From Colwellia sp. PAMC 20917 (lineage in GTDB: Bacteria; Pseudomonadota; Gammaproteobacteria; Enterobacterales; Alteromonadaceae), in NCBI RefSeq assembly GCF_001767295.1, contig NZ_CP014944.1, forward strand, positions 930,001 to 994,000: DNA of 64,000 nt. The letters run 5' to 3'. Positions 3,762 through 43,560 of the stretch are shown here, piece after piece. The notes under the pieces were generated by a model that made no database searches, had not been told where the DNA came from, and worked only from the letters and a program-made list of their open reading frames with translations. The position numbers and the translations under genes were made by a program. Position 1 is the first letter of the stretch; each line of letters starts with the position of its first letter.

Positions 3762-4939
3762 CGTTTATTTTTTGGCACATAATTTAGAATAGAAAGTGGC
3801 ACCACTTTTTTGACTGGAAATCCTTCAAATTCTTTGCGTTTAATAACATGCCCTAAACGGCTTTCTATCGCACACAAGTTTCTAAAATTGTCCTTGGCTA
3901 CAAATGATACCGCTTCTCCAGAGGCTCCCGCTCGACCTGTTCGGCCAATACGGTGAATATAGTCATCGACTTGATCAGGTAAGTCGTAATTAACCACTCG
4001 AGTGAGCTCGCCGATATCAAGACCGCGTGAAGCAATACCTGTAGCGACAAGAAACTTAATTTTACCGGCTTTAAAGTCATTAAGAACTTGTTCTCGCATC
4101 GCTTGTGTTCTGCCACCATGAATAGACTCGGCACTAATGCCACGTTTTTCTAGCTGGCTAACAAGTTTCGCTGCACCGTGTTTTGTTTCGATAAAGATCA
4201 GCGCTTGCTGCCATTGATGTTCAATAATTAAATGGCTCAGTAATGCCGACTTATTACCTTTATCAACCGTTATTAACCATTGATCAATTTTAGGTTTAGA
4301 GGCGCTATTATTGCCGATAGAGATTTCTGTCGCATTACTAAAGGTACGCTTTGATAACGTTCGAACATCATCAGAAATAGTGGCTGAAAATAATAAGTTT
4401 TGACGTTCGAGTGGCAAACGTTCAATGATTTTATTAATATCTTCAATAAAACCCATATCAAGCATTCTGTCAGCTTCATCTAAAACAAGGACTTCAAGTT
4501 CATCAAAATGCAGAGCACGTTGATGAGCCATATCAAGTAATCGCCCGGGAGTCGCAACAACAATATCAACCCCCCAAATAAGCTTCTGCCTTTGCGGTTC
4601 AATGTCAGTACCACCGTACATTGCCATCGAGCTTAGGTCTAAATACTTACCATAATCACGGATACTTTGTTCTACTTGAACGGCAAGTTCACGTGTTGGG
4701 GTAAGAATAAGCGCTCGAATACGTTTGCCACGTAATTTTCGTTCGGTATTAAGTTTTTCAAGTATTGGTAAAACAAAACTGGCCGTTTTACCGGTACCTG
4801 TTTGCGCTGCAGCAACAAGGTTTTTTCCCGATAAAATAACCGGAATGGCTTTTTTCTGAATAGCCGTTGGCTCGCCATATTTTAAGTCAGCAAGTGCTTT
4901 TAAAAGCGGTTCACTTAATCCCAGTGTCGAAAATGGCAT
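3758..4939 (-). CDS. DEAD-box ATP-dependent RNA helicase, RhlE-like
   Basis: RNA helicase that unwinds structured RNA in ribosome assembly or RNA decay. All core motifs are present in order: Q motif PTAIQKKAIP, motif I AAQTGTGKT, PTRELAVQ, TPGRLLD, DEAD in VLDEADRMLD, SAT in LLFSATI, and motif VI HRIGRTGRAG. At 393 aa it is close to a minimal helicase core, with only a short basic tail (VPKNKR) instead of the long disordered C-terminus of E. coli RhlE. It follows the DUF1456 gene by 4 bp, so the two are probably one operon. Confidence 0.93.
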   Translation of the reverse strand: MPFSTLGLSEPLLKALADLKYGEPTAIQKKAIPVILSGKNLVAAAQTGTGKTASFVLPILEKLNTERKLRGKRIRALILTPTRELAVQVEQSIRDYGKYLDLSSMAMYGGTDIEPQRQKLIWGVDIVVATPGRLLDMAHQRALHFDELEVLVLDEADRMLDMGFIEDINKIIERLPLERQNLLFSATISDDVRTLSKRTFSNATEISIGNNSASKPKIDQWLITVDKGNKSALLSHLIIEHQWQQALIFIETKHGAAKLVSQLEKRGISAESIHGGRTQAMREQVLNDFKAGKIKFLVATGIASRGLDIGELTRVVNYDLPDQVDDYIHRIGRTGRAGASGEAVSFVAKDNFRNLCAIESRLGHVIKRKEFEGFPVKKVVPLSILNYVPKNKR

Positions 4940-39067: not shown

Positions 39068-39481
39068 TTAACCTGCAATGCCTTGTTGAGTAAGTGCATT
39101 AAGATCCGCTAATGCTTGTTCGGCATCCTTAACTGCAATGAAAACATGATCATGATAGTAAGCTGCAACAACATTTGCGCTAATATTTGATTGCGTCAAT
39201 TTAGTAGAAACCGCAGCGGTTAACCCAACTGCATCAAGGCTCGAATGTACATTCAATGTAATACATTTAAAAACACCAGAGTACGAAATGTTAAATTCAT
39301 CGGCTTTTTCTTTCGTCAATATAACGGTTAATCCTTCCTTTTCTTGAAAAGTGCTTATAGGGTTTAGCAACAACACTTGTTCATAATCATACGTATCAAG
39401 AGTACCAAACACATATTCATTTTCGACTAAAACAGGCGTCATAGACGCGATTAATTTTGCTAAGTTTTTTTCACCAGACAT
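39068..39481 (-). CDS. ACT-domain protein (DUF2241/ACT_7-like)
   Basis: Protein of 137 aa. The N-terminal half (LIASMTPVLVENEYVFGTL) fits the DUF2241 half; the C-terminal half (FKCITLNVHSSLDAVGLTAAVST, then FIAVKDAEQAL) is an ACT domain, a small-ligand sensor. It lies 27 bp downstream of the SMR exporter gene on the same strand and may share the riboswitch-controlled transcript. Whether it responds to an amino acid or guanidine-related ligand is unknown. Confidence 0.85.
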   Translation of the reverse strand: MSGEKNLAKLIASMTPVLVENEYVFGTLDTYDYEQVLLLNPISTFQEKEGLTVILTKEKADEFNISYSGVFKCITLNVHSSLDAVGLTAAVSTKLTQSNISANVVAAYYHDHVFIAVKDAEQALADLNALTQQGIAG

Positions 39482-39508
39482 ATATATTTCCTAAATTTAT
39501 TGATTGTA

Positions 39509-39823
39509 TTAGTTAGACATTTTCAAACCAGCCACACCAATGAAGATCAAACAAAAGCAAAACAATTGTTGAATTGAAAGTGGTTGATCAAAAAAATAAT
39601 GGTTTATGATTGAAATTGATGACGCACCTATAGCTAACCAAACGAGATATGCTTGGCTAACAGGAATGTCTTTTAATGCGATTGAGAACAACACTAGGCT
39701 AAGCGTCATTGAAAGAACAGCGAATATTATATATGGGATATTTGTAAAGGATTCTGACTTTTGAATACCAACTAACCAGCCAGCTTCTAAAATTCCTGCG
39801 AGAAATAAGATAAACCAATACAT
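39509..39823 (-). CDS. SMR-family exporter, probable guanidinium exporter (Gdx/SugE type)
   Basis: Four-helix small multidrug resistance protein of 104 aa. The essential membrane Glu is E13 in LAGILEAGW, and AYLVWLAIGA matches the conserved helix-3 region of the family. SMR proteins of the Gdx class exchange guanidinium for protons. The decisive evidence is upstream: a mini-ykkC/guanidine-II riboswitch lies 20 bp 5' of the start. It is followed by an ACT-domain gene after 27 bp. Confidence 0.9.
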   Translation of the reverse strand: MYWFILFLAGILEAGWLVGIQKSESFTNIPYIIFAVLSMTLSLVLFSIALKDIPVSQAYLVWLAIGASSISIINHYFFDQPLSIQQLFCFCLIFIGVAGLKMSN

Positions 39824-39841
39824 ATAAACACTCTATTAAAT

Positions 39842-39888
39842 TTAGGGGTCGTCCCCTGAAAAAATAGAGCGTTGAGGTCGTCCTCACA
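39842..39888 (-). promoter_or_regulatory. Guanidine-II (mini-ykkC) riboswitch
   Basis: The transcript reads two short hairpins, each with an ACGA loop: stem UGAGG/CCUCA (39873-39886) and stem AGGGG/CCCCU (39844-39857). Paired hairpins with ACGR loops define the mini-ykkC (guanidine-II) class. The linker contains ACGCUCUAUU, which can pair over 10 positions (one G-U) with AAUAGAGUGU directly before the SMR start codon. This fits translational control, with guanidine binding releasing the ribosome site. Confidence 0.93.
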
Positions 39889-42593: not shown

Positions 42594-43457
42594 TTATAAT
42601 TCAGGCTTAAAACCAGCTGCTTTAATTTCATTAATTAAAAACAGCCCTATTTCATCGATATTATCATCAACTTTTTTATATATAAAACCGCTTAAATCAT
42701 CAGGTATATCCACATCGCCTTTATGAAGAACACAGACATTTTTTCTCCCAAGCTTAGCGACCAAATAACCAAACTCAAAAATGACATTAGGTTTGGCTCT
42801 AATGACTTTTTTTCTCTCAGCATCTATAACACTAGATTGATCAATCGTATACGAAACTTCATCAGGGGTAAGTAATATGAATGCATAAGATACATCACTG
42901 TTGGCCTCGAGTTTTTCAATGAGACTTTGCTCAGCATCCACTTCTCTGTGCAAAAAAATTGGCTGAATTCCGATTTGTGTAAGAAATAGCGCTAATTCAA
43001 TTTTTAAAGCATTGTCATGCCCATGAACAATCAGTACTTTATTATTACTTGGTACTAGGGAGTTAGTTGCATTTGTTTTTTCGGTCGAACCTTTGGGTTT
43101 ATTGGTTTTTTTTGGTGGCCCTGAAACTAATAATTCATTAAATATATCGCCTTCATCTATTAACGAAATTAATGCATTTAATGTTTTAATATAATTGTCT
43201 TTTGCAAACTCAAATTTGTCTTCACTATTACCTGTTACCTTTGAATTATTTGCAGCTTTAAAATAAACAAAAGGTTCTGAATTTGGTTTAACTGTTTGTT
43301 TCAAAATATTTTCTATATCATTTACCCATGTATCCCACGTAGGTAAAGGCTCCCCTAAAGTCAGATCAAGAGGATCATGCTTTTTACTACAGTTTTTCCA
43401 ATTAAACGCTTCACTCATTTCTGCTAGTTTATTGATTTTATTTTTTAACAGCTTCAC
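42594..43457 (-). CDS. TIR-like nucleotide-binding protein (PF10137), candidate immune effector
   Basis: Protein of about 287 aa. The C-terminal half matches the predicted nucleotide-binding TIR-like family also found as CBASS/Pycsar effectors: VLIVHGHDNALKIELALFL, EKLEANSDVSYAFILLTPDE, then PNVIFEFGYLVAKLGRK with the expected catalytic Glu, and VCVLHKGDVDIPDDLSG. Such domains cleave NAD. Residues 1-130 are unrecognised and may sense a trigger. I start at GTG 43457 with AAGGA upstream; the ATG at 43499 lies inside attC-like site D. No cyclase gene is adjacent. Confidence 0.82.
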   Translation of the reverse strand: MKLLKNKINKLAEMSEAFNWKNCSKKHDPLDLTLGEPLPTWDTWVNDIENILKQTVKPNSEPFVYFKAANNSKVTGNSEDKFEFAKDNYIKTLNALISLIDEGDIFNELLVSGPPKKTNKPKGSTEKTNATNSLVPSNNKVLIVHGHDNALKIELALFLTQIGIQPIFLHREVDAEQSLIEKLEANSDVSYAFILLTPDEVSYTIDQSSVIDAERKKVIRAKPNVIFEFGYLVAKLGRKNVCVLHKGDVDIPDDLSGFIYKKVDDNIDEIGLFLINEIKAAGFKPEL

Positions 43458-43473
43458 TACTCGGATCCTTGCA

Positions 43474-43560
43474 CTGCAACGCCCGATTAACTGGCGCATA
43501 ATTGTTGACTAAAGTAAGCACCGAAGAAGCAAATAGCCAACGGTTATTTATTTTATTTAA
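43474..43560 (-). repeat. attC-like site D
   Basis: Between the GNAT and TIR-like genes. On the minus strand it holds CCGTTGGCTATTTGCTTC, then GCTTACTTTAGTCAAC, and ends AATCGGGCGTTGC. It shares TTGGCTATTTGCT with site A and the end with site B. Confidence 0.72.

Follow-up and report, generated by a model that had tools for sequence, protein, structure and literature searches.

Features of the locus

We analysed a 64,000-nucleotide stretch, hereafter the window, of the genome of the marine bacterium Colwellia sp. PAMC 20917. The window carries a guanidine-II riboswitch aptamer, a gene for an SMR exporter and a gene for a protein with two ACT domains. All of these parts are on the minus strand. 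The full set of coordinates is in Table 1. The initial annotation had described two hairpins with ACGA loops 20 nt before the SMR start, and an ACT gene 27 bp beyond the SMR gene. The sequence agrees on both counts; the spacing of 20 nt is that between P2 and the SMR ATG at position 39823. The annotated location, 39842-39888, was the right site but 1-3 nt off, and the strand was not given.

Table 1. Elements of the riboswitch, SMR and ACT locus, numbered from the first nucleotide of the window.
Feature	Position	Strand	Basis
Guanidine-II (mini-ykkC) riboswitch aptamer, RF01068	39845..39889	-	cmscan 39.1 bits, GA 32, model 1-48
P1 hairpin, UGAGG-ACGA-CCUCA	39873..39886	-	sequence; covarying pairs; MFE fold
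Linker segment ACGCUCUAUU, anti-Shine-Dalgarno strand	39863..39872	-	MFE fold; cognate linker/SD permutation test
P2 hairpin, AGGGG-ACGA-CCCCU	39844..39857	-	sequence; covarying pairs
Shine-Dalgarno side strand AAUAGAGUGU before SMR start codon	39828..39837	-	fold, duplex test
SMR exporter gene, 104 aa, Gdx-like	39509..39823	-	PF00893 8.6e-18; best PDB match 6wk5
AGGAAA, probable ACT ribosome-binding site in the 27-bp SMR-ACT gap	39487..39492	-	sequence only
Two-ACT-domain protein, 137 aa, ACT_3 + ACT_7, VC0802/1zvp family	39068..39481	-	Pfam, 1zvp match, model

The leader is a guanidine-II riboswitch

Guanidine-II riboswitches have a pair of G+C-rich hairpins, each with an ACGR loop, and a connecting linker that is mostly 13 nt or longer (PMC5486947). 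The window leader contains two such hairpins, P1 and P2, each with an ACGA loop, and a linker of 15 nt. A guanidine-II identity had been proposed for them, and the search with RF01068 (Rfam 15) upholds it. Positions 39889-39845 of the minus strand gave a full-length match of 39.1 bits, compared with a gathering score of 32. This aptamer is the sole RF01068 match in the 4.68 Mb genome; no guanidine-I riboswitch was found in a search of the same genome. The 73-nt leader folds with an energy of -25.4 kcal/mol, compared with -12.1 +/- 2.5 kcal/mol for 200 shuffled sequences (z = -5.3), none of which was as stable. Across thirteen related leaders, both P1 and P2 contain pairs that are changed on both sides; in the alignment, three such pairs are in P2. 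A scan of ~0.5 Mb of related loci for two ACGR hairpins produced one match in the reversed-sequence control.

The two hairpins might instead be a decayed or chance look-alike with no switching function. The match to RF01068 has only a moderate score, and P1 in the window has a G-A mismatch as its outermost pair. However, the score exceeds the gathering threshold, the P1, P2 and anti-Shine-Dalgarno helices covary, and the leader is conserved across genera and phyla. We consider a look-alike extremely improbable. Taken together, the covariance model, the covariation and the anti-Shine-Dalgarno architecture confirm the guanidine-II assignment. The riboswitch almost certainly controls the SMR gene.

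The linker pairs with the SMR Shine-Dalgarno region

In the published guanidine-II model, a guanidine-driven contact between P1 and P2 weakens pairing of the linker with the Shine-Dalgarno region (PMC9300104). The window leader has the same expression platform. Its MFE fold includes a 10-bp helix between linker positions 39863-39872 and positions 39828-39837 in the SMR Shine-Dalgarno region. Read in one constant register, 88% of this helix is paired over the thirteen related leaders. The spacing shifts in some species and so we also compared cognate with permuted linker:SD pairings. For ten diverged leaders, the cognate duplex energies summed to -111.1 kcal/mol versus a permuted mean of -79.9 kcal/mol, and 3 of 20,000 permutations were as good as the cognate pairs. 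With all 122 guanidine-II leaders collected, no overall signal emerged from the duplex test (mean z -0.35). Hence, we limit the claim of pairing to leaders of the exporter clade (see below), L251 and L261.

In the docked guanidine-II aptamer, a linker of 14 nt has to span 49 Å (PMC5486947). Docking therefore calls for an extended linker and should be mutually exclusive with linker:SD pairing. In relatives, compensating changes preserve this pairing, which gives good support for a translational ON switch; the predicted ON direction follows the published guanidine-II model.

The guanidine-II riboswitch upstream of E. coli sugE/gdx is similar in having two ACGR hairpins, a 15-nt linker, linker:SD pairing and an SMR gene directly downstream. 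It differs in that the window operon runs on into an ACT-domain gene.

The exporter resembles Gdx transporters

The closest PDB match of the SMR protein is the Gdx-Clo-type transporter 6wk5 (5e-15). Both are 104 amino acids long and identity is ~34%. In Gdx-Clo, the guanidinium site is formed or held in place by residues E13, W16, S42, Y59 and W62, and tryptophan at position 16 is typical of Gdx proteins; the Qac subtype has Gly or Ala (PMC7695847). An alignment and position tally show that the window SMR keeps all five residues. Conversely, both TM3 GxxxAxxxG motifs of Gdx-Clo are gone, replaced by S56/L60/A64 and G66/I70/N74. The NCBIfam SugE equivalog was the best of 23 SMR models, at 69.2 bits versus a cut-off of 126. 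Hence, we call the protein Gdx-like rather than a formal Gdx member. The earlier proposal of a guanidinium/proton antiporter is therefore sustained by the binding-site residues, but not by the SugE score or the TM3 motifs.

We built a tree of 87 SMR proteins, most of them encoded behind guanidine-II leaders. The window SMR falls in a clade of 12 (support 100/99) that sits on a long branch, so that the usual caution about long branches applies. In members of this clade, the TM3 motifs G56/A60/G64 and G66/A70/G74 are partly or wholly lost. In 10 of the 12 the next gene encodes the ACT protein. The tree thus defines a divergent clade of Gdx-like exporters.

The long branch and the lost TM3 motifs would suit a clade that exports another guanidino compound, such as agmatine, methylguanidine or a breakdown product of arginine. 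The ACT protein would then sense the same compound or arginine, the ligand of CASTOR1 (PMC5187391). However, the leader holds a standard guanidine-II aptamer in which both ACGA loops are intact, guanidine riboswitches show high specificity (PMC12186494) and the Gdx-Clo guanidinium-site residues are intact. Another substrate is quite unlikely. With high confidence, the residues kept at the binding site predict export of guanidinium or a close relative.

At two loci, in unrelated genomes, an insert of ~180-260 bp breaks the SMR gene that follows a guanidine-II leader. These are L124 (the second copy in G046; about 4520-4880) and L251 (2620-2795). The L251 insert is partly palindromic.

The ACT gene recurs behind the riboswitch

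No terminator-like site was found in the 27-bp gap between the SMR and ACT genes. The same order of riboswitch, SMR and ACT was found in genomes G046, G013 and G088 (the Pseudocolwellia agarivorans locus L224 is the same locus as that of G088). It is also present in Paraglaciecola sp. MB-3u-78, two Colwellia and, in another order, two Marinomonas. The most distant example is Acanthopleuribacter pedis, from another phylum, where the SMR gene is broken by a ~180 bp insert. Every sister SMR-ACT pair that we found has a guanidine-II leader. In two cases these leaders are unlike that of E. coli in having much longer linkers. Thus, in L261, from a Paraglaciecola MAG, and in G067, two perfect ACGA hairpins are separated by 56 nt and 36 nt respectively. 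The L261 leader (2585-2680) is missed by RF01068 at the gathering score. The G067 leader (L120, minus strand, near 4834) is missed even at E up to 1. We had taken G067, on its negative Rfam result, for an SMR-ACT pair lacking a riboswitch; the two ACGA hairpins led us to drop this apparent exception. Such long-linker guanidine-II switches escape the current Rfam model.

Two linkages look like separate associations of the ACT gene with the riboswitch. In G067, the SMR protein is outside the window clade in the tree of 87, and a sister genome has the ACT gene without an SMR gene in that neighbourhood. In G126, a gene for an uncharacterised, probably secreted protein comes after the riboswitch, ACT is next, and there is no SMR gene.

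Could the riboswitch control the exporter only, with ACT a passenger in one mobile gene pair and without a guanidine role? Nearly all sister SMR-ACT pairs go back to one SMR clade, genomes G041 and G071 have riboswitch and SMR with no adjoining ACT gene, and the genes after SMR vary at other guanidine-II loci (glyoxalase-like, DUF-type and epimerase-like). Conversely, SMR and ACT stay together at 50-96% protein identity although every other neighbouring gene differs, and the flanks beyond the pair have nothing in common between genera. The ACT gene is also under strong purifying selection (dN/dS ~0.08-0.18), and the G067 and G126 linkages fall outside a single gene pair. On balance, a passenger is unlikely. 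Plasmid homologues of ACT and SMR are all <60% identical, and no paired plasmid copies were seen in the two contexts inspected.

We consider it highly likely that ACT is a genuine member of the guanidine regulon. The initial annotation had raised such membership as unexpected but possible; recurrence of the SMR-ACT pair with a guanidine-II leader across orders, and in a second phylum, strengthens the case. Membership is not universal. Of 80 ACT homologues fetched, 72 have no guanidine-II leader nearby, and so the general role of the family need not be guanidine. Furthermore, of the guanidine-II loci seen elsewhere in the order, around one hundred in number, most have SMR or guanidine-carboxylase genes downstream. 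We read the ACT gene as a real but optional member of the regulon.

The ACT protein is related to CASTOR arginine sensors

The ACT protein matches Pfam families PF10000 (ACT_3, 1.7e-22) and PF13840 (ACT_7, 6.5e-12), in that order and over its full length. This is the arrangement of VC0802 (1zvp), which matches at 5.1e-35 over the full length, with 48-50% identity and the same fold (the predicted structure has a pLDDT of 89.8). The difference is one of context. Most homologues in this family that we examined are outside guanidine operons, whereas the window copy is inside one. The VC0802 structure was released in 2005 and, to our knowledge, has had no function assigned. We found nothing relevant under VC0802, COG3602 or DUF2241 in the open-access literature searched.

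A profile of 51 ACT homologues matched the human arginine sensor CASTOR1 (1.5e-5) and CASTOR2 (6.1e-5), proteins of the mTORC1 pathway. These were the only other significant group among solved proteins. By sequence comparison, CASTOR1 and CASTOR2 are thus the nearest solved relatives of the ACT protein outside its own family. The aligned stretch, CASTOR1 276-322, is gap-free and pairs D111 with D304, H110 with F303, Y108 with F301 and A107 with T300. D111 is invariant (51/51 homologues). In CASTOR1, the guanidinium group of arginine is held by the ACT_7 loop, through the side chain of D304 and the backbone carbonyls of G274, T300, F301 and F303 (PMC5187391). The ACT model fits the C-terminal half of CASTOR1 with a Z score of 11.6 and an rmsd of 2.1 Å over 121 residues. 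Aspartokinase regulatory domains fit about as well. Hence, fold alone picks no ligand, and it is the sequence match and the aspartate that point to CASTOR.

The ACT protein therefore shares the CASTOR fold and the guanidinium-binding aspartate. It does not share the two-half architecture, in which arginine lies between the halves. Arginine binding by CASTOR1 also draws on the other half of that protein. The window protein is bacterial and its 137 amino acids correspond to the C-terminal half only. Hence, we describe it as a relative, rather than a member, of the CASTOR group.

Recurrence of the riboswitch-SMR-ACT arrangement in distant bacteria suggests that the ACT protein also recognises guanidine-like molecules. 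We tentatively propose, from the conserved residues, that it may bind a guanidino compound, though the odds fall a little short of even. A broader and more doubtful proposal is that ACT proteins of the VC0802 type are CASTOR-like receptors with which bacteria recognise the guanidinium group. Within these operons they would provide a second, protein-based guanidine sensor beside the riboswitch and exporter. If so, the arginine pocket of CASTOR would derive from a bacterial pocket for guanidino ligands, or the two would have a common origin.

A model for the operon

We think it likely that the locus is a guanidine-induced detoxification operon, in which a guanidine-II riboswitch and an SMR exporter are accompanied by a co-expressed sensor of a presumed guanidino ligand. 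In our model, with guanidine absent, the linker between the ACGA hairpins would pair with the SMR ribosome-binding region and block translation. Guanidinium bound to P1 and P2 would favour the loop-loop contact, stretching the linker and freeing the Shine-Dalgarno sequence. The SMR exporter would then be made and would expel guanidinium, most likely in exchange for protons. As a conserved co-expressed partner, the ACT gene is probably cotranscribed with the SMR gene and translated from a ribosome-binding site of its own. Its product would most likely be a soluble sensor or binding protein that holds a guanidino compound by way of the ACT_7 loop.

Neither the riboswitch nor the exporter is unusual in kind. 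In the open-access literature searched, we found no account of the ACT component, of its recurrence or of its kinship with CASTOR, and no link between ACT domains and guanidine riboswitches. Guanidine riboswitches have repeatedly exposed the function of mis-annotated genes, since what they regulate is guanidine biology. The widespread two-ACT-domain VC0802 family now joins the genes tied to these riboswitches. Its ties to CASTOR arginine sensors, by sequence and fold, make the question of the D111 ligand testable.

Other guanidine-II loci and neighbouring genes

Genes of several other kinds were seen next to guanidine-II riboswitches. At L171 (G677) and L017/L127 (G071), the SMR gene under riboswitch control has a glyoxalase-like gene after it. 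In three genomes, the first or second gene after the riboswitch encodes a protein of ~230 amino acids that is probably secreted and has no Pfam match (L007/L121 in G126, L130 in G119 and L131 in G069). Residues H31, H46, H54, D55, H115 and E117 are invariant in the three members. Homologues occur in 33 of 346 genomes of the order, most of them not seen at a riboswitch. At L050 (minus strand) and L057 (1558-2562), a gene resembling fatty acid desaturases (di-iron type) is directly after the riboswitch. The next gene encodes a TIM-barrel or metallo-beta-lactamase fold. The desaturase-like product is possibly an unrecognised guanidine enzyme. Finally, positions 42594-43499 of the window (minus strand) encode a TIR-domain protein of the CAP12/Pycsar type (PF10137), which may be an anti-phage effector.
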